DNA from: Cliona cf. orientalis
Lineage: Eukaryota > Porifera > Demospongiae > Clionaida > Clionaidae
Assembly: GCA_963930775.1 (NCBI GenBank)
Contig: OZ005689.1
Location: 18,499,775-18,563,774 of the forward strand
DNA: 64,000 bases
Direction: 5' to 3'
Shown here one piece after another: positions 3,111 through 32,412 of the stretch. Position numbers and translations under genes: made by a program. Position 1 is the first letter of the stretch. Every line of letters starts with the position of its first letter. The notes beneath the pieces are model-generated. The model did not search any database. It worked only from the letters and a program-made list of their open reading frames with translations, and was not told the origin of the DNA.

Positions 3111-5870
3111 TTATGTTGTGTCTTCTTCCAGGTTGTCGTCACACCCTGTTCTGGATAAGGTGTCCTTGATCCAGTTAGTGTTGCACATCTTATCAAGGCC
3201 ATCATCAGTGGGATCCTTGAAGCCTATTGAGGTACGTTCTGGTATCTCATGTGCCACTTTCTTTTCGAGAAAGTAGTTGACCACATTGGTGATATCCTTG
3301 TTGGCATCCCTTGTTGAGTGTGACTGAGAACGGTGTGCACCGAACTCATGAGCAACCCTCTTAGATGCCTCCATGAGAAAAAGTGCACACAATGATAGGT
3401 CTTCCGCATGTTGCTGGGTCAAATTGGATCCACCGCTTTTCATTGCTTCCTTTAGGGCCCTACAAGTGCATGTACACATGTTGAGTATAGAACATACCAG
3501 TTTTATGCACGTGTTTAAACTTACAGGTTGTAATGCTCATTCATTTGGTCAAGCGGTTTCCCTCTGCCTGCCTTTCCTTCCATGTTTACAGTGCGGTTAT
3601 GAATTGCTATGAAGGAGAGATGCTTTGGTAGCTTCGCACATAAGTTGGCAATCTGGTGAACACACTCCACAGCATAATTCTTCCTCCCAGTTCCAATTAG
3701 TCTTGGCAACCATAGCTTCCATAGTCTCACAATATGTGGTCCATGCTCATATCTGATGGCGCATCTTAGATCCACGTACAGAAAAGCTAGATGAAGGAAT
3801 GTCCTGTGCATGCTGTATAGTGTGTCACTGGATGGTACATGCATAGGCATCACAGTCTCGGTGACTAGTTTCTCTGCTGTTGACTGAAGCCATGTGAGGG
3901 ACTTTTCATGTGGTATGATGTCAGATGTTGACTGTAATCCAAATATGGTACATATCCTAGCTGTCAGGTGCGCTTTGAATGAGTGGATGACAAATTCATC
4001 GCCAACACTGAACACTTTGACATCTTTATCCACCTGATTCCGTCTGATCTGTTCCCTCACATTGCAGAGTGATCCGTGTTCAGCCGGAGTGCCCCAGAAG
4101 ATGAGAAAGATGACTCGGAGACATTCCCAGAGAAAATGGAAGTCACCTGTTGCATAAATAGCATTTAGACATCAGTATTCTTGATACTGTTCTAAATAGA
4201 GCCTACCTGGAGTTTCATGTGCCCATGTGAGCCTGTCAGTGACATTCACCTCGGACGCTCTCCACAGCTTGGATCCTCGGATATTCTTGCATGTGAGTTG
4301 GTCCCCAATTACTAACTGCATGCATGTAAACATATGCACGTACATGTACATTGTAAATAACATGATACATGTTTAGGAATGGAAATTTGTGGTTAATCAT
4401 TTATAGCCCATAATATTATTTTATAATAATGTACCTGATGCTGGCCTGACAGGTTAGCGTCACTCATTAGTTGTGTGAGAATGTCAATAGTTTGACTTTT
4501 GTACTTTTCATCTTTGTACAGGATCTTCATGGGGACAACTTGTGATTTTATTACAGGATGGATCGACTCGGGTTCAGGAACAAATTCTGCAAGATGCTTG
4601 AGATTTGAGAACGTCTCCACAAGGAATCCCATCATGTAGTGCACAGCCCGTTGATGCAACACAGTGGCATCAGCCTCGCTGGGAAGAAAGTCGTCAACAT
4701 TGAGGGAGGTCCGAAGTCGTGGGGTGGTGTCTGCCCAATCAAACTCAAAGGAAGGGAGTTTCTTGATCTTTACAGCCAACCTTGACGTCAGATTCAACAT
4801 TGAGGAATGGTGATCTGGAGAGGTGTGTTGTATACATACACTTCAGTAATGCATAATTGCCCGGTACATGTACATACATGTACTAATGAGTGCACACTGT
4901 TGATTGCATGTACCTAGCCTCTCATGACGAATTTTCTGATGCAGGTTTAGATTGTCATAGATCCACAACCAGCTTCCTTCTCTTATGATCTCCAAGTACA
5001 TAGACTCCTGGGTGAGTTGTTTCAAATACTTCCATGCAGTCGCATAAGAAGTACAGAGGCCAGCATGATTAAGCACTGTCATGATCTGCATAAATAGCAA
5101 TAATTATTATTGAGGGATGCATGATTTTTGTTTCTCACTTGTTTACTTGCAGCCTGTGCAATAAGCATGAATGAGAAGAGAAGTTGGAGTCCAAGCACCT
5201 TCACAGACCGGCCCTTGAGCAGGGTACATAGCGCTGTTGTCGACCTCATGTGGACTATTCGTGATAGATCATCGTCATCTTCGAACCTAGCACCCTTTGC
5301 CAACTGTTGGAATAATTCGACAACATCTGGAGCAGCAGTACGTAATTCTGCTATCACTGCGTCCAGGGAGAAACTGCGGAAGTGGTCAACTGTGTCGGGG
5401 CCATGAAAGGAACACATATTAGATTGAAGCAGTGTCTGCATCTGATCATCCAACTTCTGTATCGAGAGTGACGACTGCTGCTGGCATTTCAGCTCTTCAA
5501 ACTGCTGCTGAAGCTGCTGAAGTTGTTGCCAGAGACACTCTTTCATCTTTCGTTCATGCTGCAACGACTGTTCTAGAGCCACCACCTGGGACGCTAAGCT
5601 ATCTGTGGTGCTACCACCAGCTTGTGGGTTGATTTCGATTCCATAGATGTACTTGTGCTTCTTCTCCCCTACTTTTTTGCCAACTGATGCAGGAAATTCC
5701 TTGCTGATAGCGTTAGACACAACGTACGCACTGATGTTGTCTGCTGGAAAAGCACGTTGAACTTCATCCAGAATATCGGAAAACTTGATCCTTGATGCTC
5801 CTTGTCCACTTGCTGGAGATGCTCGATATCGACGTTTGATCCACTGGTTTACTTCAGGGTTAAAATCCAT
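3111..5870 (-). CDS. DUF6589-like putative transposase (6 exons, intact)
   Basis: Six exons (5139-5870, 4914-5085, 4435-4814, 4207-4315, 3525-4146, 3111-3459) join in frame through GT-AG introns to give 787 aa with no lesion. I start at the ATG at 5870, which precedes MDFNPEVNQW. The N-terminal ~100 residues are basic and probably fold into a winged-helix-like DNA-binding segment. A Gln-rich coiled coil follows (WQQLQQLQQQFEELK). The core carries WIYDNLNL, then IGDQLT, then FHFLWECLRV, a layout I associate with DUF6589 proteins of fungi and early-branching animals. The D of YDN, the D of GDQ and the E of LWE make a credible DDE triad (inference). It is the only transposase candidate between the TIRs. 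Confidence is high that it is a real gene, moderate on the family name and lower on the catalytic assignment. Confidence 0.82.
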
Positions 5871-6428
5871 GCTGACATCCAACTGTTTGATTCTCTTCCA
5901 AGAGCTCCCCTTCTTATATATCCTATCTAGATCTATTTTTAGCCTTGTGGTTTTGTCTAGTCTGTGCCTGTTGTCTATTTTTAGTCATTGATTGTGTCAT
6001 TTGTAATGATGTCAAAAAAAAAACAAAAAAACCTGTTGAATCCAGATCTTATTATGAGCTCGAGCTTGCCGTTTCACTCGCACACGTGTCAGTACCAGTT
6101 ATTTACAGTTAGGCAAGTACTACTAGCTAGCTAGTGATCCTACATGAGATTATCACTGGTACTGCCATGGGGCTGTATCGATGGCTTGCTGCTACATCTG
6201 ACAGTACTGTGATAAGCATCAAGTGAACCTGTTTCATGCAGAAATATCCACCATGGACACGCACAGGAAAGGAGTGACCAAGGTAAGTATCTTGTGGCTG
6301 GGTAGATCATTCTACACAGTTCGCCTGCTATTAAACGAGTAGCTGCATGCGCGTGGGCGCACGCAACGTGCTAATACGTGTCGCCTACGCGCAATTAAGT
6401 CGATTCCAGGTTGGTTCCAGGTGCAACG
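5871..6428. other. Subterminal leader of the transposon, no further gene
   Basis: The space between the transposase start codon and the right TIR shows no convincing extra coding exon. It should hold the promoter of the minus-strand gene, but I cannot pick out a specific box. Confidence 0.4.
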
Positions 6429-6513
6429 TCACTCACGTGCGCTCGCGCACCAGGCCCTCCCCCTTTTCTGCGTGTAACATTGAAAACGTGGGAGTGGCCT
6501 GGGGACGAGGCTA
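6429..6513 (-). repeat. Right TIR of the RecQ/DUF6589 element
   Basis: This is the inverted partner of 433-517, with one mismatch in the G/A-rich centre. The 9-bp duplication ccccaaata follows directly at 6,514-6,522. Confidence 0.92.
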
Positions 6514-6660
6514 CCCCAAATACTGTCAGATAATTATTTGTTGGTAGTTGACCTCTATTCATTATTTGCCTACTTTATGATGACCCACCCCCTTCCCATA
6601 GCCGGCAAATTGCCTATAAAAACTTTGGTTGCTAGGCAACTACTAACAATAATATACATT
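6514..6660. repeat. Right half of the split hairpin MITE plus adjoining short MITE
   Basis: It continues the target repeat (ctgtcagataattatttg), then ttgttggtagttgacc…caactactaacaa, an approximately 115-bp unit with inverted ends. The same pair of units lies uninterrupted at 45,402-45,576. Confidence 0.75.
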
Positions 6661-7573
6661 GTGCATGTAACATGTAAACATGTAAACATCACTTGTGTAT
6701 GTACCTCACCTACATGTATGTTCTTCAGGTTCACAATCTTGTGCTTACCCATGTGAGCACGAGGATGTCATTATCATTGTCATTAGACCAACAGGCCTGG
6801 ACACTCCCAACTGGCTGCCTCTTCACTGCTGTAGGGAACCCCTTTTCTATTTGTCTGCATCATGCCTGTGACTATCATTCCTACTGCTTTCTGAAGCTGG
6901 TAAGTATGGGACTAGTATAATACACACACAATGCAACCTTTCTACTTAAAGATCGTACAAGTAGCTTTTATTATGGAATTCTTTCACAAATGCGAGGACT
7001 ACACGAGGGATCTGACCAAGATCTTCTCAATCAGTGTATCATACACATATGCACACACATTGTAGGAACCCAGGTGTACTAACAGAGAGAATGTATGCCT
7101 TGGTGCCCCAAGGATAGGCTTCCCCTTCATGGCTCTTAAACAACATAAGACTCATCTGTGGCTGTATTGTCATTAGGGTAGTGTAAGTACATGACAATTG
7201 AACATGTTATTTAATAAAGTATGGCTTGTTACAATTCTTTTATCTTAGTGTGTGATTAGCTTGTAGAAAAAGATTTCTGCAATAAATGTTTGGGGGAATT
7301 GGGAGCACTTAGGGAGATAATTGTGACCGTCTCTAAGAAAACCCAGCATAATATGGGATTTTTTGTGAAAGTTGAGTTTTATGTATGGTTGATAAGCTCT
7401 ACCATACAGCTAACCCGCGTTCAAGTTTCAGACTGACTGTGCGCTTCGTTGTGGAGATACAGCGCTTTGTTTGCGATCGTGCCACACCTCCAATAATCGA
7501 GAAATTACGGTCCAAAGGCGTTCCTATGCACGCGTATGGCGTTTCCGTATACGCGTGTCTCGGAAATCAATTA
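6661..7573. other. Gap, no gene recognised
   Basis: The open frames are short and without motifs. A 75-codon frame at 7,385-7,612 (+) has no recognisable family and overlaps an interspersed repeat, so I do not call it a gene. Confidence 0.4.
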
Positions 7574-7868
7574 AATGGTAAAAAGGTGAGCAAACATACA
7601 GTAGTTCAATGAATCTAGCTGTATCTAGGTAGAAATTCTAATTAGCACCCACAGCAACGGGCTCCGTGTACAGTAGCTGTACAGACTAGGTAGGTCAAAA
7701 TGAAGGCTTATTTTTCGCCTTTGTAACTTACGGTTAGCCTCCGTAGGCGACGGCAAGGGTTAGTAGAAAGGTTATTTGGCGTGAATATGACAAAAACTCA
7801 ACCTTGACATTTTTTGACTGAGATACTAAAGAACACACATTGCGTGAATAGTGCACGGATCCCATATG
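7574..7868. repeat. Interspersed repeat, second copy at 56,363
   Basis: The stretch aaaaaggtgagcaaacatac…ctccgtgtac…cacggatccca is a diverged copy of 56,363-56,940. The copy here has no insertion at acacattgcgtg. It therefore serves as the empty site for the MITE at 56,624-56,890. Confidence 0.75.
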
Positions 7869-7904
7869 CCGGGTTTTGTCAGATAGTCACAATTTTTATA
7901 CAGG

Positions 7905-19896: not shown

Positions 19897-20988
19897 CATA
19901 AATAATAACCACTTGTAGTTAAATCGATAATTATATTCCCTTATAATAATATAATATTATAGTAATATTAATTATCACTTTAGAATATAGCTATTGAGAA
20001 TCCTGCTATCTGATTGGTTAAGAGTGCTACTAACCAACTTTGATCCCTGCAGGTTTACTAAGTACTCCAGGCACTAGCTTGAGCCCCGTAGTAGTATGAC
20101 CTTTGTATGATTACTATGACAACAATCCAGGAAACCACACTGAGTCTCACAATAATTATAGCATGTGCATGGACTGGATTCATGGAGCTACCACATTTGG
20201 CCACACCCATGATGCACCACAGAGCGTTATAGTGTTGGTGACTGAGAGCTATTCAGGTGCTAGGATTTGTTGCTAACTCACAGTTCTTGTTCTAACTAGC
20301 TTTGACTCAGCTCTTGCTGTCATGGTTACAGTTTCTATGTTCTAAATAAGTTAGATATACCTGGTCCACTGATGGGATCTATGCTCTTTAGAGACCCTCA
20401 GGCCCTTAGTAGCACTCTTGCTGCACTCGGGATACTACAGCCTCGGGTCTTCGGGTCTCTAAATCACATAGATACCTTGGACTCGGTATCTAACTAGAAT
20501 ACTGTGTGGAAGATAATTTATATGGGGTACTAATTATTGAAGTTCGTGGTTGACTTAATTAGCACCTCTACAATATGTATGCTAACCAAAAGTACCCACT
20601 GCATGTATGGCTAATTAAATGAGTAACAAAAATGTTTGTGATGCCTTGATTAATTTCACAATAATAATAATAATATTATGCATACACTATAATTGTTCTC
20701 TGGACATCGTGATAGTTTACTGGCCACAATAGTATTATGGCATATTCGTTTATGATACTTTGAATGGGGTGAACAAATTAGATCCATCACTTAATTAAGA
20801 AGCAATGAAGGGGGGTAGTTTGCTTACATGCATCTCGACTACACGGGCTAGAGACTTAAATTTTGTAGGAGCAGTAGGGTGATGGTGACCATCTCAGCGC
20901 ATTATGCATACTTTTTAAGAATCCTGCATAAGCTGGTGTAATAATTATGACAGAGAGCATGATTGATAACAGTGATTTATACATGTAG
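19897..20988. other. Gap, no gene recognised
   Basis: AT-rich sequence with short A/T repeats. I see no open frame with coding character and no clear element ends in this stretch. Confidence 0.45.
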
Positions 20989-21537
20989 GACTCAAATTCT
21001 GGAAGGTTGGGAGTCGTAAACTCTATGCCGTGAAAGAGTGAGCTCAAAGAAACAAAGAAGAGGAGCTCAACCGCCAATGTAATTGACATCAGCTCATCTG
21101 ATTCCGACAGTGAAATTATCCCGTTAGTTAAAAGGAAGTGAATCTGGATGGATTCAATCAAACTTCAGAGGATCCAGGACGACATCAAAGAGATAAAAAT
21201 GGAGCTATCCAAAGTATTCCTATTGACAATTACAATGCAAGTTCCCATTGGACTTCGTCGCCTCCTATGTGACACCTTTCGATGTGGTATATGCCATTCC
21301 ACACCAATAAAGCCACCAATAATCTTTGCACGGTGCTGTAAAAGTATTATTGGCTGTCAATCACGTGTAGACACATGGTACAGGGGAGACAAGGGGCAGC
21401 AGCGTACTTGTCCAAATTGTAGGAAGGCACGTGCCTTTGTTGACACATGTAAGATCAACGGCCTTGAAGATTTTCTTACGGGCATAGCACCGCTTTTGGA
21501 GGTTGATTCCACTGATGAGGGCGAGGAGGATGTGTAA
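20989..21537 (+). pseudogene. Decayed terminal exon of a RING-like gene
   Basis: It is the paralogue of the third exon of the intact RING-like gene at 23,809-26,626, in opposite orientation. A splice acceptor (acatgtag) is kept, then LKFWKVGSRKLYAVKE followed by a TGA, a frame change, a second TGA, and a well-kept Cys-rich end: FRCGICHS, ARCCKSIIGC, CPNCRKARAF and INGLEDFLTGIAPLL. The upstream exons are not seen here. Confidence 0.75.
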
Positions 21538-21540
21538 TTA

Positions 21541-22140
21541 CTCTGATCTATCAAGTTATCAATTGACTTGAACAGTTTGCTATAATGATTTTGTGGTTTT
21601 CATTCTGTTATTATTCTTTAGCTATATCTATTATCTAGCTATCCTGATCACTTATTACTATCATCTATCTTGCTAGCACTCATAATCTGATTCTGTATTT
21701 AGCTAGCTACACTGCAATTATATGGAGCACATTAATTAGAATGTTCAGTCATGTGACTTGTATGTGGTTTCTGTAGAGTGGGTGGAGAGTGGGGATAGTC
21801 ATGCATGCAATCCCATATCACTATAACATAATTATGGCAGTGTTCTCAATTGAGAATTGAACACTAGACTCATTAATTTTGACATTCAATTTTAAGTCGG
21901 GCTTGAATATTGAAAATCAAATTCAACATTCAATTTTCATTCTTTAAATTTGGATTGAACAGTTAAAAATTGGATCCAGAGAGTCCTTTCAACTTCCATT
22001 CTATGAAGTGGTTTGGAATATGAGAATACTCATGGCTTCTTAGAAAAAAAAGAAAATTAAATTAGTCATGAAAGTTTGATATTAAAGTTGCAAATCTATT
22101 GACTGTTGAAGAGAACCAAAATTCATAACTTTTAAGCTTT
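21541..22140. repeat. AT-rich aattgaa-type repeat field, no gene
   Basis: It contains irregular repeats of attcaattttc and attgaaaattga, the same simple motif that fills 23.0-23.3 kb and 29.1-29.8 kb. No gene is seen. Confidence 0.45.
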
Positions 22141-22144
22141 AAGA

Positions 22145-22811
22145 CTAATAAAATGTCAATTGAACCAAACATACATGCACCATAATATTATAGCTCCAAG
22201 AGAATAACACATGCTCATAAGGCTGAAAAAAATCGAAGTTCAAAATTAGACCTAAGTTTCCTGGTTCACAGTGAAATGGCTTGCCTTCATAGCATATAAA
22301 TTTTTGCCATATCTGACCATCGTATACATCTTGCAGTAGTCCACTGGTAACTGACCTACATCTCCACTTCTCATAGTCATTGAAAAAATTTGGTCCAAAC
22401 ATGGATTGCAAGGACACATTTACAGACTAACGTAACAGCATATTATCAGAAATGGATACACATAGGTCTTCTTGCTAGCCAACTCAGCAGTCTTCAGAAG
22501 AAGTTCCACATCGTGATTTCATTCGTAACTGTGGATGGAATGGAAACCGCTTAAAAGAACATTGTTTACTCTTACGATGAGTTTCAATACACTGAATATT
22601 GATAAATTGAAAAATATCTGCACACAATGAAAGACTGACACTTAACTTCACCTAAAATCTGCTTAGCTATATACAGTGATTGTGGGAAGCATTCGGCAAT
22701 CTCTTTTCCAATCTTACAGTGCGGACCAATGATACGAAAGCGGACAACAAAAAACTGAAGGAAGTATCCAATCACAATGTCTGGTAATCTAAATGCAGCT
22801 TGCATTACCAT
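22145..22811 (-). pseudogene. CACTA/EnSpm-type transposase fragment
   Basis: The best piece reads LLQDVYDGQIWQKF, then PGNLGLILNFDFFQPYEH. This resembles the VYDG…WQPY/FQPY segment of CACTA-type (tnp2-like) transposases. Upstream pieces in shifted frames read RFPFHPQL and CGTS, and a further piece reads LPDIVIGYFLQFF. Several frame changes separate them, so only a remnant is left. The superfamily assignment is by motif recall. Confidence 0.5.
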
Positions 22812-22889
22812 AAAAATGCTAGATCCAATTCAAAAGAGCACGAGAGCTGCTTGGCAGTGTCAAATGATGTGCAATTATCAATGGGGTCT

Positions 22890-23140
22890 GGTGCATGTAT
22901 GTTTGGGCCAATTGATTTTCTACAGATTTAAAATTCAAAAGGTGTATATTTTGGCTCCCTTCAACAATCAACTGATGAAAATTGTAAACAGAGACCATCC
23001 TATTCTGCTTTTCCTTTTGCTTGAAAATTGAATGGACCAAAAAGGATACTCAGATTCAATTTCTTCATTTTAACATTAAAATTAGATAGTTAATTTAGCA
23101 TTCAACTTTCAATTCTCAATACCTCCCAACATTTTTAAAA
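22890..23140 (+). repeat. Left ~250-bp inverted repeat
   Basis: It pairs with 29,646-29,889. The match runs from ggtgcatgtatgtttgggcc through cagagaccatcctattctgc to ctcccaacatttttaaaa and then ends abruptly. Confidence 0.88.
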
Positions 23141-23411
23141 TTGAATTCAGCATTCAATTTTCAATTTTCAAAAAAGAATAAAATTGAATTCAGTATCCGA
23201 TGTTCAATTTATCACACACAAATGAATTGAAAGTTAGCTAGCTAGCTATACAGTGATTTTTCATTTTGAGCCCTTCCGCGGCAAAAATTGGAAATTAGCT
23301 AGAAATTATTGTATACAATTTTTGTCTGTTTAATCATTTTCAATTTTTCCCTGATTGGAGACCACTAAATGGGGGTGGGTGGACCCTATAACTTAATTAT
23401 ATTCATTCACA

Positions 23412-23453
23412 TAGTCTCGTGCCCAGACCCCGTGGGGTCTGGGCACGAGACTA
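23412..23453. mobile_element. 42-bp perfect hairpin of the TAG-ended family
   Basis: tagtctcgtgcccagacccc is followed at once by its exact inverse complement. The flanks tcattcaca and taattcaca agree at 8 of 9 positions, consistent with a 9-bp target duplication. It is a minimal element of the same style as 12,473-12,546. Confidence 0.75.
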
Positions 23454-23808
23454 TAATTCACATGACTAACTATTCCAATTAAAGCACATATGGCATGCTG
23501 GACCGGGTAGCCATCCTCCTCCCACTTGAGCTTGCACACTTGTGATCACATGCAAGTCATATGACTAATTAAAGAGCTCCACATGTTGATTTCTAATTAA
23601 AGAACACATAATATATACTAGGTCAATTTCAAGTATATACTAAAATAGATCAAGAAAAAGATTGTAGGCTTGTAGAATCAGTGGCAAGATTTGAATTAGG
23701 AGATCAAAAGTTTAAATAAGAATAAGGCTAATCAAAAGCCTTTGATAATAATAGTAGCTATAATAATATCCGAGTTCCAAGAGTATAGCAATAGAAAGAG
23801 TCTCGAAG

Positions 23809-26626
23809 TCAATCATGATACTCGTTGGCATCATCACTTGTATCATTGCTGCTCTCCAAAAGTGGAGCAATTGCAGTGAGGAAATCATCCAAGCCATTGA
23901 GCCTGCATGTTTCAACATAGGCTCTGTCACTGCGACATCTAGGGCAGGTTCGTGATTGCCCTTGTTCACCTCTGTACCACGTATCAACACATTGTTGACA
24001 TCCCAAAATGTATTTGCAACATTTTGCAAATATAATTGGAGGAACCATAGGAGTAGCCTGACATATACTGCATCTGAAGGTGTCATATAACACACTTCGT
24101 AGGCCAACCGGAATACTCATGCCACTTGTGAGCGTGAATATCTTCTCCAAACCATCTTTCACCTCCTTCAACTCACAGGAAATATTTGTCAATTTGACAA
24201 ACTCAGCCGTACGCTTACGTTTCACCAATGGAGTTATCAAGCTTTCATCGGAGCTTGAAGATGATTCATTGGCAGCAGCAGATACCCTTTTTTTCTCACG
24301 CAGTTCAGATTCCTTCACAGCATACAGTTTTCGACTGCCGACCTTCCAAAATCTCAATCCTATAAAAATAAGTATGTTTGATGTCACAATCATGGGATAA
24401 TGTGACTGAACACTACTAATAGCATGCTATGTACAATTGAGTTCCAGTTAGTACAGTGTGCATGTGCAGATGAAAGCAGCACCGAACTTTGAACCTATGC
24501 TATATTATGGTGTAGACCACACCTCTCACTGCAGGCCAAGAGCAGCTGCTCAAACTCACCATGTAATGGTGACATTCTCACTCCGCTCGAACGTCGAATC
24601 TACCACCAGACGTTCACAAAGAGCAGATATCGCCTCTCGCTTCGCTCGAGGCTCGGTGGCCTGCCATGCAGGCCTATTGAAACACGCAGTGCTTGTGCCG
24701 CTTGCTCAAGCTCAAGAATGGCCCTAGGCAATGGCAACCTCATTTGTGCACACGGCACAACAATTCTGACCAATCATGAGTCTTCTGAACTTGTAGGAGA
24801 GCGCATCTTTTATGCCTTCCAGGTTAGGATACGGACTATATAAGAAAATCGTCGCTCTGAAAAATATTTTTCGTTGTATTATAGTATAACAAACAGAATA
24901 CTTACTTTAATTGAGTGCATGTGACATTACTCACCCTTAGTTCCAGAACTGTCATCCACCTTAAGGCCATCAGACGTCACTAATGTGTACTCTTGCCCCC
25001 ACTTACGTTGAACAGCAGAGCTCACATAGTGCAGGTTGGCTGTAGCTTCTGTCACATCCACAAAAGTTTGATTTTGCGGAGAGAACTCAAGTTTCCCATT
25101 TGATAGACGTCTGACAGAGGCTTGGATGATTTTAACATTGCAGGATTGGGTCTTTCTTGCACTTAAGTGGGATAGTCCAGATGTGGATGGTTCTGAAGCT
25201 GTGGGAAGTACCCTCGCTGAAGATATGGGAGGTGAATGATGGGATTGTGTATTCATAGGCGAACCCATTGCCACCAGATTAGTAATAAGAACGCCAACAT
25301 CATCGTTAAAGACAAAGTGAGCATTATGCTCATCAGGAAAGAATGCCCTATTCCCAGGTGAATCCTCACGGAGCCATACAGTAGCAGGATCCAGCTGTAT
25401 TAAAGAAGTAGTATACTCATAAAATCTTAAGGACCGTATTAAATTTCTTAACATTCTACATGTAGACTCTGCCCAACTTAGAGGCAGACATTCAACATTT
25501 CAAATTAATTGAATTATTCAATGGCTGTTTGCACATGTAGCATGCATGTGACAATATTTGTTATACTATAGGCCACTACAAATTGAATAGTTGTTTCCCG
25601 TCCTGGCTGTCGATTCAATAGCATGCGGACTGGCAGTTAATTTTCATTATTCATTAATATTCATTATTACCGGATGTGGTATAAACCACAAATGGCTGCT
25701 GGGTACATGACTCGAGAGCTAATCCCGCCATCTTTAGCTGATATGGCAAGCACAATCTTGGAACTATGAATGAAGTTACTCACAAGTATAGCGATCATCA
25801 AGCAGAGCGAGAACTGCAGTGAGCAAGTACTGAATGAGCCATGCATGACGTCACAAATTCAGCTCGCAACTCGAGTGCACATGAAATAGACCGTAAGTAA
25901 TATTGAAAATTACAATTACAATAATAGAAAAAGTTGGCGGTAGCTCAAAAGGCATGTGGGTGGTAGACGGGAAGCTATGATCCAAATATTCTTTGTAGTG
26001 GTTTTATAGCTTGAATAAGCTGTCAACTGAATTTATAGTTTATTAATAACTACCGAGCGATCATTTTTAATGATTTTGGTGTTCGGACAGTTTGAGTGAG
26101 TACAGTATGTATGATGCACATGTATACACACACAATGTCGGCGGGGGGGGGGGGGGGGGGGGGGGGGGTGAGGGGCATGGTCAAGTGCACCCCAAAAGAT
26201 TTCCACACAGAGGCTACCCTATGATCATTTACACTCATTCAATTCATTTACCTACTTATATGGTTACATACATACATGTACATGTACATTGTCATAGGTT
26301 TCTTGCTATGGGAGGTCATGCCACTAACGCACACTGATCGAGGTACCTATCCACCCCCTCCCCCCGGACAAGGCCTATTTAGTCGAGTCTCAATTTTTGT
26401 CATTATCTTTGTTAAGTTCCTATAATACTGTTTCCAGTATAACTTCAAACAACATGGGGGTAACTAGGTACATAATTTGTACAGTGCAAAATTATATATC
26501 GCGCCAACTTACAGAAAACACTCTTGCAACAGAAGTAGGAGTGAGCTGTTCCAGAGCGATTTCTACAGTCTGGGCTCCCTCGCGGGAAATACGCACAGTA
26601 TCCTGGATAGCAAATCTAGAAGCCAT
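23809..26626 (-). CDS. RING-like zinc-binding protein (3 exons, intact, 374 aa)
   Basis: Exons 26,513-26,626, 24,935-25,394 and 23,809-24,359 join in frame with GT-AG introns. Exon 1 starts MASRFAIQDTVRISREG. Exon 2 is probably a largely disordered linker with Ser/Pro-rich parts (MNTQSHHSPPISS) and a few hydrophobic segments. Exon 3 has a KKRVSAAANESSSSSDES linker, a basic VKRKRT patch, a helical segment and a C-terminal Cys-rich module: CSICQATP, KCCKYILGCQQC and TCPRCRSDRAYVE. The spacing C-x2-C…CC-x4-C-x2-C…C-x2-C fits a RING- or U-box-like fold, which could act as a ubiquitin ligase or a structural zinc module. It is divergent from the integrase gene, with start codons 131 bp apart. A decayed paralogue lies at 20,989-21,537. 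The role in transposition is unknown. Confidence 0.78.
26143..26168. repeat. 26-bp poly-G tract
   Basis: An uninterrupted G run inside the first intron of the RING-like gene, followed by a fragment of the ggggcat…tgcacccc hairpin repeat. Its length is likely to vary between copies and assemblies. Confidence 0.8.
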
Positions 26627-26757
26627 CGTTACACGTGGTCAAGAGACTCTATAGATCTAGCTCCCGTAGGTTTTGGCGGGACCCTGGCGACCTTCCGGAC
26701 CTGTATGTCGGGTGAACATTATTAAGAATTTGGCGGCAATCGTTGAATAGTTTAGAA
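26627..26757. promoter_or_regulatory. 131-bp bidirectional promoter region
   Basis: This is the whole space between the divergent start codons of the RING-like and integrase genes. It must hold both 5' leaders and core promoters unless untranslated exons lie elsewhere. I see no clear TATA box; cttccgg and GC-rich patches occur near 26,692. Confidence 0.55.
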
Positions 26758-28863
26758 ATGGCTACGATTGCTGCACTTCCCGGTGTCCATGCATTGATCA
26801 GAAAGTTGGTCGTCGAAGAAAGGAGGAGCCATAAGTACGTAAGCTCAGAACTAAAAAGACGCTATCCTACGATGCAACGTGGTCTAGGTGAAAGGAGTGT
26901 AAGAAGATTCTGCAATGAGTATGACATCCACACTACATCTCGTGTAACAGATCAGGCATTAGATGTTATTGTAAGAAGTTGTGTAGGAAAGGTGAGACAA
27001 TTAAACTGTTATAATTTAACTGAGCACTGTCTCATGGTTCTCGGGGCAGTCTATGATACGAGCTAGTCGCTCGAGCCAGCCCTAAAAGTTCCCGGGCCGC
27101 CAGACTAGGCCAATCACTGATCAGTGAGAAGTAGCTAAGAGCGCAGCATGGCACTGCTTCTCAAATATCCCCCCCCCTCCACAGTATCAATATCATAATA
27201 ATCATAAAAATTAATGGCTTTGAATTGCCTGCACTGTACGCATTACTACCCCATAGCCCACTTGCAGCTATACTGATACCCTGGAGCAGGAATGTATATT
27301 AGTATTATTATATAAACCTCAGTAATTTATTTTTTGTACAGGTTGGACCCTCTTATGGCCGTAGGATGATGACTGGGCTACTAGCGTCAGAAGGAATAAG
27401 AGTGTGTCAGTTACGTGTTGGTCAGTCACTACAGAGAGTCAACCCTGGTCATCACCAGCGTCGTGTGACACGGACTCATAGACTTACTAACCCTGTGTCA
27501 TATAGTGCCGACTATTTTGGAGAAAAAATCCATATAGATCAAAATGAAAAACTTGTTATGTTCGGTGTGACGCATGTATGTGCTATTGATGGGTACAGCG
27601 GAAAAATTGTCGCATTTACTACCATGCCTATAAAGAACAATATCATCATTTATGAACATCTGTATATGTAAGTTCAGCTCTAAGATTATACACATGCACT
27701 AATTATAAGATCAATGGCAAGTTTTTAATTTGGCGATCCATAGTTAGCTAATAATTATACAGAATGTGTGCCCGGCTATATTGTAGGACAATCTGTCAAC
27801 TGGCTTCAATGAGTGTCGTAACTATAGGCGACCTATTCCTGTATAACTATCATGATAATAATATACTACAAATTCAGCAAATATTATTTTCCTGCATGAA
27901 TGTATATTATTATGACGTAGGAAAGCAGTGCAAGACCATGGGCTATGGACCCAACTAAGAGTTGATAAGGGTAGAGAATGGTACTTGATGCTATTTGTCC
28001 AGGAAAAGTTGTCTCAGTACCGAACAGATACCTCAAAGCCTGCATTCCTACAAACTGCATCTAAACAGGTAATGATTATAATTTTAGTTATGCATTCTGT
28101 GATGTTTTATCATCAAACTTTTTTAATTTCTATATAGAATCACATGATTGAAAGATTATGGGTAGAGGTCAACAATCGTGTGAATTATCCCATAAAGCAA
28201 GTGCTCATCGAAATGGAGAATAATAGCAATATTAACATGGGTGACAGCCTCTGCAAATTTTGTGTCTCGTGGTTCAGCATTCAGGTAGCCATGGTTGGAG
28301 TAAATCTCTTTATTCAGTCCTGGAATAGCCATCCCATTCCAGGTAGTTTAATAATAATATTTTCATAGTCGTGTCTATAATATTATACATGTCATTAATT
28401 TACAAATACACTATTAGTTTAACACAGTAATTATAAGGGGTTGTTCCCTCTGAAAATTTGTCATAGAAATGCTTTATGACACACTAAGTACAGTTACTGT
28501 ATTAACAATAATTATTCATAATTCACAGGAAGACGACGGGGAGGAATGGGGAGTCATATACCAAATGAAATCATGCATAGAGCTAACAGGATCTCTAGAC
28601 TAGACTTAAGATACCTACCCACTCCTTCTCAAGCTGTGAGTATGTACCATCAAGAAGGTGGAAGGTTATCTGAAGAATCTGGATTTGGTGACGACCCACT
28701 CCATGGTGATGCTGTAAAGTGTTCCATTAGATCTCGGGCTCTCCATGATAGACACTCATCATTTGATAATATCTTTCATGAACTAATTAACTCAAATCCT
28801 GTCCCATTCAAGAATGCTCTTTTATTCTATATAGACACTACATTTCGCTTGTCTAGATCATAG
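26758..28863 (+). CDS. Integrase-core DDE protein (5 exons, intact, 415 aa)
   Basis: Exons 26,758-26,991, 27,342-27,667, 27,921-28,068, 28,138-28,342 and 28,529-28,863 join in frame with GT-AG introns. I start at the ATG of MATIAALPGVHALIR. The N-terminus has a helix-turn-helix-like segment (YVSSELKRRYPTMQ). The catalytic core reads GEKIHIDQNEKLVMF (first D), CAIDGYSGKI, LRVDKGREWYLMLF (second D) and NHMIERLWVEVNNRVNYP (E), so a full D-D-E set is present. The C-terminus reads QSWNSHPIPG and continues as a family-specific tail. I know this family as an animal rve/integrase-core group often found in repeats. The gene is undamaged, so it could encode an active recombinase or be domesticated. Confidence 0.85.
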
Positions 28864-29211
28864 CTATATAGAACTATATAATAATAATATATTATTATTA
28901 CTGTGTACCATTATAGTAATTAAATTTTTGTGGTGGAGTACTGTGCAATAATTACTGAAAGTATATCTATTGCAATAATAATAATATTACATATAGCTAT
29001 ACTGTACATTATGAGATCTTATGCAGTGATCACATGCAAGTCATGTGACAGTATTCCCAGGACCTTAAAGTGATTTAGTGATCCTTTAGGTAAAATATTG
29101 AAAATTGAATTTTATATTCAATTTTCAGTATTTTTAATAAGTTACTAAAATTTAGTAGTATACTTGAAACATATCCATTTCTTGAAAACATTATTATTGT
29201 ATACAGCAGGT
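28864..29211. other. AT-rich 3' flank, no gene
   Basis: AT-rich sequence with TAA/ATT runs follows the integrase stop codon. No coding signal is seen. Confidence 0.5.
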
Positions 29212-29487
29212 TTGTAAAGAAAGTTTGAAAATTGAACTTAATAATCAATATTCAATTTTCATATTTTATTGATAATTGTTGAAGAAGATTTAAGTGAATG
29301 CCATTCATCATTTTGACAAATAGAAAATCAATTGGTCCAAACATACATGCCCCGAAAGAAAATTTGAAAATTGAACTTATTAATCAATATTTAATTTTTG
29401 CACTTATTAATTGTTAAAGAAGACTTAAATGAATGTCATTCATCATTTTGACAAATAGAAAATCAATTGGCCCAAACATACATGCAC
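29212..29487 (+). repeat. Direct duplication of ~140 bp near the right arm
   Basis: Two diverged units (about 29,212-29,352 and 29,353-29,487) each run from gaaaattgaactta to atcaattgg…catacatgc, ending like the element tip. Together with the end at 29,889 this makes three tip-like ends on the right side. Confidence 0.65.
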
Positions 29488-29645
29488 CGGGTCTGGTGGT
29501 TCCATGTCCTGCAGCAATTCCTTCTCATTTTCTTCCCAAACATCCAATTTCAGCTCAGAATCTGGTACTGATTGTGATGCGTCTATGGTGAGTGTATAGT
29601 TGGTCCAGTTGTCATTTTATTGCCAAAAAAATCGGAAGATGTCTA

Positions 29646-29889
29646 TTTTAAAAATGTTGGGAGGTATTGAGAATTGAAAGTTGAATGCTAAATTAACTAT
29701 CTAATTTTAATGTTAAAATGAAGAAATTGAATCTGAGTATCCTTTTTGGTCCATTCAATTTTCAAGCAAAAGGAAAAGCAGAATAGGATGGTCTCTGTTT
29801 ACAATTTTCATCAGTTGATTGTTGAAGGGAGCCAAAATATACGAATTTTAAATCTGTAGAAAATCAATTGGCCCAAACATACATGCACC
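29646..29889 (-). repeat. Right ~250-bp inverted repeat
   Basis: It is the inverse partner of 22,890-23,140. It ends catacatgcacc, right next to a different repeat that starts tacatcccttcgc. Confidence 0.88.
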
Positions 29890-30099
29890 TACATCCCTTC
29901 GCTTGCTTTTCTCAATTATTGTTGATCTATTTGTCGAGTGCGGCATGTGGGAGACATTCACCTGTTCCCTGGTTGTTACGATGGTTCAGGATAGTCAGTT
30001 TTGATTCAGTTGCATTATTTTTGCACCCCTAGAAAAGCAAGCGTAGGGATGTATAGCAGATGTTTATGCCTTACAAATCTTATTTGTGTACTTTTTGAC

Positions 30100-30640
30100 C
30101 CTGCCATCCCTACTTCATCCTTCAATTTTATTGTTTTCTATTCCTGTTTGTTCTTTTTTTACTGCTGTTAGCATGCCATCATCATAGAGTCGGTAGACTA
30201 TCTCTATAAGTAGGGATGGCACGGATACTCCATATATATAATGCATTATAAATATCAAAATATCTCAAAACAGGTAATTTTGTGAAATTTCTAAGTGTCA
30301 AAATCTATCGATCTAACCTAACAAGACCAAGATCATTCATCAACTCCATTGTATATGCCAGAATCAGATGTTCAAAAAATAGCCATTTTCTTAATCTTTC
30401 TTTCTTTCTTTCTGTTTTCCTGGGCTAACTCATGACCGCTCACCTTAGTTCGAGTATAAATCCACTCTATTTTGGAGCACGCACGTCTGTGGCATGCTCG
30501 TTTTATGTTATCAGGACAGCGATTCAATTGTGGGTGTGTACAGCGCGTTTTGTGAGTGGGTGTGTCTAATTAGCCATTTTGTCATATAATGCGCATGCTC
30601 ATACGGTGTTGCCATGGTGAAGTCATGTGACCGATGTCAG
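30100..30640 (-). repeat. Inverted copy of the 31.9-32.4 kb repeat
   Basis: Shared features, read in reverse orientation relative to 31.9-32.4 kb, are ataagtagggatggc, attttgtgaaatttctaag, the (ctttct)n stretch and the ccactctatttt segment. The two copies flank about 1.3 kb. Confidence 0.7.
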
Positions 30641-31202
30641 TGGTGTGCATGCACCGGGACTTGCTCGAGTGCTCAAGCGCTCAGCTGATCGATCAGCTCG
30701 ATGAACTAAAGATTTATATGGTGGCTACTACCAACAGTAACTTACTGGCCTATAGAATATGCTCCCGAAACAGAAGATTTTCGTCGCTACTTAAAGAAGA
30801 CGTCCTAGCTAGCTATCAAACGACTGCCTGGGATTTGCACTTCAGGAATATTCAAGTTTGAAATCACGGTGTGTTTCAGTACCATAGCTCGGGCCTGATA
30901 CAAAGGCAAGGATCGCACAAACATGCTCAATCGGTGGTCCAGGTGTACCTACTTCCTTGTAATATTGTTGGAGCACAGTTGGATGTAGCTTGGTCCAGAA
31001 AAAAAGAAGTTGTAGCTAGTTCTAAGCATTAAAATTTAACATAAATAACAATGAATACGCAACCATAATATCAGATCACCATGGTATGTATAGTTTCATG
31101 CCTGGCCTCTGTCCCCGCAAAATTAGTCAGCTATATAGGTGGCATTGATGGAATTAATGACAATCATGAGCTACCCCGAGGGCTCTAAAAAAAGAACAGT
31201 AA
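30641..31202. other. Gap, no gene recognised
   Basis: One 75-codon frame (30,634-30,861, +) has no recognisable motif and overlaps the end of a repeat, so I do not call it. Nothing else is seen. Confidence 0.4.
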
Positions 31203-31590
31203 CAAGTATAAAAAGCAATTGAATAAAATTGAAGGATGAAGTAGGGATGGCAGTGCCAAAAAATACACAAACAATATTTGTAGGGATAGCGTATCACACC
31301 CACTATACATCCCTATGCTTGCTTTTTGAGTAGCCTTGCACAGACATATATATTATTATAATATATGGGCACATACAGAAATGGAAATCAATACTGTAAA
31401 CCCATGGATAGTGATACTTTACATACTGAATCAGAATTAAGTGTATGATATTAATTATCAAGAAAAGCAAGCGTAGGGATGTATAGTGGGTGTGATACGT
31501 TATCCCTACAAATCTTGTTTGTGTATTTTTTGGCACTGCCATCCCTACTTCATCCTTCAATTTTATTCAATTGCTTTTTATACTTGTATA
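31203..31590. mobile_element. Palindromic element with ~125-bp arms
   Basis: The arms (31,203-31,327 and 31,462-31,590) are inverted near-copies containing gaaggatgaagtagggatgg, a tttgtagggata segment and gtagggatgtatagtggg. They enclose a 134-bp loop. Fragments of the same arm occur near 8,468 and 30,020-30,130. It looks like a foldback or MITE family. Confidence 0.75.
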
Positions 31591-32412
31591 ATATGGCTTG
31601 CTCATTGTAGAGGGGAGGGAGGTACCGAAGTTCACGTGTGCGCGCAAAGTTGGCTGGTCTGACAAAGAAGGCTGTGTGTCTCCTTCAAGATGCTGACTGC
31701 TGAGGAGCCTCTTGATTCCTAATTAAGTTCGCTATATAGCACTCAGCTCGCACTGGCCTAGTTAACTAAGCTATAGTTAGTTCGCGTGGGAGAGAGCCTG
31801 GCGCTTGGTTCGAGGCTAGAACTGAGTGCCTCCAGTGTCTGAGTGCTGAGCGATTGAGCCAGGCCAGTTACATTGTACGCGGTCCGGTACGTTCATGCTG
31901 CATCGCGCGCGCCGCGCCCCTGACCACAGTCACATAATTTCACCATGGCAACACATTCCGAGCATGCGCATCGTATGACAAAATGGCGTATCAGACACAC
32001 CCATTAGTTAATGCGCCGTACACACCCACCATTACATATAATAGTTGAGATAGCGCCAAACTAATGTGCCATGGACCTGCACGCTACAAAATAGAGTGGA
32101 TTTATACTAGAACTAAGGCGAGCGGTCCAGACAGTCTTGAGTTAGCCCTGATATTGAAAAAGAAAGAAAGAACGAAGAAAAAAACGAATGACAAATGGGG
32201 TGTTTTTCAAACATCTGGTTCTGGTATGTACAATAGTTTTGATGAATGATATTGGTCTTGTTAGGTTAGAGATGCACAGTTTGCTGGAGATTCTGACTTT
32301 CACACTTAGAAATTTCACAAAATTACCATTTTGAGATATTTGGGTATTTGTAATGTATTACATATATGGCATATCCGGGCCATCCCTACTTATAGAGTCT
32401 ACCGTCCCTATG
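31578..32412 (+). repeat. ~0.8-kb repeat, full copy
   Basis: It is the more complete sister of 9,348-9,985. It carries an extra GC-rich block (about 31,880-32,120) that is deleted in the 9.3 kb copy. Confidence 0.7.

Follow-up and report, generated by a model that had tools for sequence, protein, structure and literature searches.

The window analysed here is a 64,000-nucleotide stretch of the genome of the sponge Cliona cf. orientalis (C1:18499775-18563774), and 216.8 Mb of genome were searched for relatives of its contents. At window positions 22890-29488 lies a DNA transposon of 6,599 bp with two divergent genes, one encoding an integrase of 415 amino acids (aa) on the plus strand and the other a RING-like protein of 374 aa on the minus strand. 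An earlier reading of this DNA, made from its letters without database searches (the sequence-only reading), had described two intact divergent genes; both were found to join at GT..AG sites without a stop. The main features are as follows, with the strand where one applies.

22884-22889: left target site duplication GGGTCT, 6 bp, recurring at 29489-29494
22890-29488: complete transposon, with ends common to three copies, each having its own 6-bp duplication
22890-22922, plus strand: left terminal inverted repeat, 33 bp, GGTGCATGTATGTTTGGGCCAATTGATTTTCTA
23809-24359, minus strand: RING-like gene exon 3, with the end of the ubiquitin-like domain, the long helix and the RING, stop included
24935-25394, minus strand: RING-like gene exon 2, with the N-terminal beta domain and most of the ubiquitin-like domain
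26513-26626, minus strand: RING-like gene exon 1, start codon 26626-26624
26627-26757: divergent intergenic region, 131 bp between the start codons, lost in the C6 copy
26758-26991, plus strand: integrase exon 1, helical N-terminal region
27342-27667, plus strand: integrase exon 2, holding D144
27921-28068, plus strand: integrase exon 3, holding D202
28138-28342, plus strand: integrase exon 4, holding E241
28529-28863, plus strand: integrase exon 5, stop included
29456-29488, minus strand: right terminal inverted repeat, 33 bp, perfect complement of the left one
29489-29494: right target site duplication GGGTCT, 6 bp

Ends, copies and movement of the transposon

Two other copies, L062 on C13 and L063 on C6, were read together with their flanks and match window positions 22890-29488 to within a few chance bases. 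The three copies sit on three contigs of 9-37 Mb, share the termini GGTGCATG..CATGCACC with perfect terminal inverted repeats of 33 bp, and are bordered by different target duplications, GGGTCT in the window, GAGGTT on C13 and CTTCTC on C6. The C6 copy has internal gaps and an insertion, and is without the starts of both first exons and the region between them. Only one base in the coding exons differs between the C13 and window copies, and the movement was therefore recent.

The C13 copy (C13:8110822-8117834) is inserted in a dispersed inverted-repeat element. With its flanks joined by a single GAGGTT, 38 other places, not counting the filled site's own two halves, were found to match across the junction (83-98%). 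An unoccupied site in the paralogous repeat was readable over the junction at one place, where it was identical over its 81 bases; the corresponding search for the window copy returned only that copy's own two flanks. Positions 22890-29488 have moved as a whole unit, making 6-bp target duplications. The proposal of the sequence-only reading, that a RING-like protein and a retroviral-type integrase fold are partners in a two-gene transposon, was strengthened by the three copies with their differing duplications, by the unoccupied site and by the many co-located loci described below. Intact reading frames in both genes would also be expected of two host genes lying by chance inside an inverted repeat, or of a domesticated transposase, but the copies on three contigs with separate duplications and the unoccupied site leave that explanation a negligible probability.

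The unit had at first been taken to be 22890-29889, a 7-kb element bounded by inverted arms of 250 bp. Near-identical arms do exist: 22890-22936 and 29843-29889 are complementary at 100%, 22933-23144 and 29642-29853 at 98%, and the same terminal sequence stands at both. The arms are not the ends of the element, however, because the C13 and C6 copies end at the equivalent of 29488, carry their 6-bp duplications there and then continue into other DNA. In addition, the GGGTCT ahead of 22890 is not repeated beyond 29889, where TACATC is found instead, and no second copy of the 7-kb unit with a duplication outside 29889 was seen. The arms were ruled out as element ends by the ends and duplications of the C13 and C6 copies, and the 7-kb unit is considered highly improbable; the true unit is 22890-29488 with its 33-bp repeats.

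The first 25 bases of the left end occur exactly seven times in the genome, as three pairs and one extra occurrence in a fragment outside the element. When up to two mismatches were allowed, a genome-wide scan gave 14 places, the seven exact ones and seven with two mismatches, and the reversed control pattern of the same 25-base terminus gave none. Two further features lie at the right end and beyond it; no matching duplication was found at the flanks of the second.

29216-29489: direct duplication of the end unit of about 137 bp at the right end (29216-29354 versus 29355-29489, 88%)
29587-29889: fragment outside the element with end-like sequences on both sides, 29642-29889 being an inverted copy of the left end of the element

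A near-perfect hairpin at window 23411-23454 (gtctcgtgcccagacccc/ggggtctgggcacgagac) recurs at several places in the genome on both strands. Further inverted repeats were observed at window 30069-32000 (125 bp at 98%, 84 bp at 82% and 64 bp at 91%), and a TACATCCCT-like motif is common to the 125-bp repeat and the sequence bordering 29889.

The two genes and their products

The integrase gene occupies 26758-28863 on the plus strand, in five exons with four GT..AG introns, which join without a stop. Its product was placed in the Pfam family rva_4 (PF24764) with a whole-protein score of 65.5 bits against a curated cut-off of 26. In agreement with the sequence-only reading a full D-D-E set is present, D144, D202 and E241, spaced by 57 and 38 residues, and the corresponding positions of the Dysidea protein P0001 (D143, D201, E240) hardly vary among 25 relatives. 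No C-x2-C occurs among the H and C residues ahead of the first D, and there is thus no HHCC motif. The closest named relatives are sponge proteins (Dysidea, Amphimedon), and no relative in the PDB was found by sequence at E≤1.

Among viral contigs 20 stretches fitted a pattern and none was confirmed as an integrase relative. In the VIA table of the integrase, absence excludes no family outside the integrase/transposase kind. Among bacterial and archaeal genome contigs two of 35 stretches were confirmed, both in sponge-symbiont assemblies. These are L070 (LWTN01000144.1) and L071 (QPIL01000047.1), filed as sponge bacterial symbionts, whose best segments are 42% and 58% identical to this integrase; the short contigs yielded no RING and are probably host DNA within bacterial assemblies.

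The RING-like gene runs on the minus strand from 26626 down to 23809, in three exons with two GT..AG introns, and its exons likewise join without a stop. The 131-bp region between it and the integrase gene is presumed to be a shared promoter. Among the open frames of at least 80 aa in the element these two genes alone were recognised, no search for a polymerase having been run.

The RING of this protein is formed by eight cysteines and no histidine (C288, C291, C305, C306, C312, C315, C330 and C333). By sequence alone it scores sub-threshold, zf-RING_2 giving 14.9 bits on the window protein against the Pfam cut-off of 27.3; the same family was matched at E≤0.1 by 15 of 35 relatives. A single-sequence search gave 14 relatives and a nine-member profile 125, of which 120 were listed, and the sole organism named among those listed was the sponge Amphimedon. 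The complete eight-cysteine pattern is present in 40 of the 120, the window protein included. These 40 proteins keep, to a large extent, the positions that we take to be the E2-contacting residues of known RINGs, namely I (40), W (38), P (40) and the arginine after the eighth cysteine (37).

The predicted structure of P0121, which was modelled without exon 1 and with an apparent read-through intron, was of moderate quality (pLDDT 71, pTM 0.37), and Foldseek gave no match to this model at E≤0.001. Closer inspection placed residues 78-198 in a ubiquitin-like fold and residues 260-333 in a RING, with a long helix between them. The kept residues and this moderate model suggest that the partner of the integrase may be a ubiquitin-like (UBL)-RING accessory protein of the E3-ligase type.

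Within the introns of the RING-like gene, a run of 26 G was observed in intron 1 (window 26143-26168). A stretch of about 60 bp in intron 2 (window 24367-24426) is a short dispersed repeat, found with 90-100% identity at at least 36 places when 40 of 1038 candidates were scored.

Pairing of integrase and RING genes across the genome

Genome searches with each protein gave at least 116 integrase and at least 48 RING matches. Matches within 4 kb were grouped, which resulted in 64 integrase loci and 27 RING loci. Of these, 32 integrase loci reach 40% identity and are called closer here, and 19 RING loci reach E≤1e-3 and are called strong; the grouping splits some genes in two (for example C1:18413781/18420791, C1:19350939/19355949 and two arms at C4) and merges a decayed RING neighbour with the RING gene of the window element. 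Integrase copies that never sit beside a RING gene, the outcome that the sequence-only reading had set against its own proposal, were not what was found: of the 32 closer integrase loci, 20 are accompanied by a RING no more than 10 kb away at E≤1, and 16 at E≤1e-3. The more distant integrase loci gave 0 of 32 at E≤1. Counted from the RING side, an integrase is present no more than 10 kb away at 22 of 27 loci, and at 17 of the 19 strong loci, where chance would give 0.17 and 0.12 loci, respectively, or 0.99 and 0.69 at the rate of the crowded part of C1. When the distance was reduced to 3 kb, 15 of the 27 remained, and 14 of the 19 strong loci.

A second complete family, L074, is 6,177 bp long and contains integrase and RING genes in tandem between terminal repeats of about 250 bp starting GGTCTGTG, its termini being GGTCTGTG..CACAGACC (GG..CC). 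Its duplication, ATTAAT, is palindromic, and the end was confirmed by two further copies in other flanks, of which one end each was read. The RING gene of L074 has four exons and encodes a protein homologous to the window RING protein over 357 residues (24%, E 4e-23); its first two introns have the same positions and phases as those of the window gene. A RING also adjoins the integrase in L066 (profile E 2.7e-12), in L068 (divergent) and in L075 (tandem, E 1.9e-16). In a tree of 68 integrases, the deep forks of which are unresolved and in which the L066 row is partly misframed with X at stops, the three includable families of this genome fell on three separate branches. Since the pairing occurs in families on three branches, the partnership would be either ancient in these lineages or acquired repeatedly. 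The RING/integrase relatives P0122/P0027 and P0191/P0010, each pair seemingly from one assembly, hint at the same gene pair in other sponges.

These data bear on whether the RING gene is a dedicated part of the transposon or a captured passenger, carried without being needed for transposition. A precedent for the latter is found in fungal TET-bearing IS3EU families, in which TET/JBP and an alpha-kinase gene stand opposite or beside the transposase (PMC12730594). Several observations weigh against a dedicated partnership. At 12 of the 32 closer integrase loci no RING was detectable within 10 kb, the partnership therefore being not universal or not always detectable; one of the 12, at C1:27.05 Mb (L067), has a weak RING profile match (E 0.037). 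Gene orientation varies, being divergent in the window family and L068 and tandem in L074 and L075, and only a sponge is named among the listed RING relatives. A passenger is nevertheless unlikely, given the pairing with integrases on three tree branches, with the misframed stretch in the L066 row, the shared positions of introns 1 and 2 in the two complete families, the kept E2-contact residues and the scarcity of RING loci without an integrase nearby (2 of 19 at E≤1e-3). The dedicated accessory remains the preferred reading.

The half of C1 at about 18-37 Mb holds 15 of the 27 RING loci and 27 of 39 integrase loci, a count made from 63 of the 116 integrase matches. At four loci (L066, C7:8.38 Mb, C1:25.63 Mb and C1:28.20 Mb) mirror-image RING sequences stand on both sides of the integrase; in L066 (C4:510500-520400) the arms 1-2082 and 5820-7901 share 99.8% identity over a length of at least 2,082 bp and carry RING sequence around the central integrase.

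Adjacent to the window element is one further feature:

20958-22181, plus strand: older, decayed, inverted relative, about 63% identical to the element (RING part 20958-21531, left-end part 21884-22181)

Its first part matches the RING exon and its second the left end, collinear with the RING-side end of the element and both inverted. The sequence-only reading had noted a decayed RING paralogue here and concluded that the RING gene multiplies. The paralogue is real (about 20988-21537), but it is better accounted for by an older element of related type, of which the neighbour, ending at 22181, is best read as a remnant. Spread of the RING gene family alone is not favoured, with 17 of the 19 strong RING loci near an integrase.

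Relation to known transposons and possible role of the RING protein

The sequence-only reading had been unable to match the element to a named superfamily. The element is still not filed as a member of one, but its integrase has a place in rva_4 and its duplication length resembles that of IS3EU and GingerRoot. With these groups it shares an integrase-type DDE transposase without the HHCC zinc domain, together with terminal inverted repeats (PMC10045372). It also shares a first D between 100 and 300 residues from the N-terminus, here residue 144, and the 6-bp duplication, seen in all three window-family copies and in the one L074 copy read at both ends. Complete IS3EU families are described as always ending TA..TA, with duplications usually of 6 bp, and GingerRoot ends are mostly TA..TA and occasionally TG..CA (PMC10045372); the rust-fungus IS3EU set ends TAYGG..CCRTA (PMC12730594). 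In contrast, both complete families here end GG..CC, and a UBL-RING partner is not mentioned in the available parts of the published descriptions. Membership of IS3EU/GingerRoot is not claimed, because the TA..TA rule fails in two families. The best reading of the element, from a comparison made through published descriptions rather than a joint tree, is a two-gene cut-and-paste lineage that is IS3EU/GingerRoot-like.

Other groups were considered. Ginger1 and Ginger2/TDD are also DNA transposons with an integrase-type transposase. Ginger1 has CCGG-type (CCGG/CCGT) duplications of 4 bp and TGTNR ends, and Ginger2/TDD duplications of 4-5 bp; Ginger1 was ruled out by the 6-bp duplications and GGT ends found here, and Ginger2/TDD by the duplications. 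Protease domains of the Ulp1 or OTU kind are found in Ginger1 proteins, with a PHD finger in one family (PMC2836005); these extra domains are fused to the transposase and include no RING, whereas here the RING gene is separate. Polinton/Maverick elements are large and contain DNA polymerase and capsid-type genes. Their 6-bp duplication (PMC10045372) fits, but the 6,599 bp and only two recognised genes of the present element do not, and this assignment was rejected.

Two-gene mobile systems that include a RING are also represented by RAG1/RAG2. The N-terminal domain of RAG1 is reportedly an E3 ligase. The proposed TransibVDJ transposon has been described as encoding a RING-bearing transposase together with another protein (PMC4411706); in these systems the RING is fused to a Transib transposase, of another family, and the partner is a Kelch-PHD protein.

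The overall interpretation, to which we give a probability of about 0.8, is that of a cut-and-paste-type DNA transposon with two genes, an rva_4 transposase and a dedicated UBL-RING accessory protein proposed to act as a ligase. The helical N-terminal region of the transposase would mediate its binding to the GGT..ACC ends, and the enzyme would join these to target DNA at cuts staggered by 6 bp, a DDE chemistry suggested by the fold. The RING protein, transcribed away from the 131-bp intergenic region, would be the dedicated accessory and may be a RING-type ligase for ubiquitin or a ubiquitin-like protein, with the transposase complex or else host proteins of silencing or repair as its target. 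That ligase activity is what the partner contributes is given a somewhat better than even chance.

A structural or targeting role instead of ligase activity would make the RING protein comparable to the Myb-like partner of PIF/Harbinger, which brings the transposase to the nucleus or to the transposon ends. The plan of a transposase and a partner as two genes in one element is the same, as in the Nuwa families with a transposase and a Myb/SANT protein; canonical Harbinger duplications, by contrast, are of 3 bp, and the transposase is of another kind (PMC12730594). No established DNA-binding family was found among the Pfam matches of the RING protein, nor among the 13 families matched by its 35 relatives at E≤0.1, and the predicted folds are ubiquitin-like and RING. 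A Harbinger-like role is consequently judged quite improbable, and a dedicated accessory of ligase type is preferred.

Among the open-licence publications that the searches listed, none was recognised as describing this integrase/RING pair; Repbase and most of the subscription literature were outside the search, so that a Repbase entry could exist. A more far-reaching proposal, which is put forward tentatively and may well not hold, is that the element represents a distinct superfamily-level lineage of animal DNA transposons, recognisable by GG..CC termini and 6-bp duplications. In such a lineage the UBL-RING protein would be obligate and would ubiquitylate either a host factor or the transpososome, as a separately encoded counterpart of the RAG1 RING.

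To our knowledge, few DNA transposons carry a separate gene for a ubiquitin-pathway protein of their own. With a young element in which both genes are intact, and several families in a single animal genome, it becomes testable whether ubiquitylation serves a transposon to regulate its own complex or to evade host silencing. The finding also extends the integrase-type cut-and-paste transposons by a lineage with termini that depart from the published rule.

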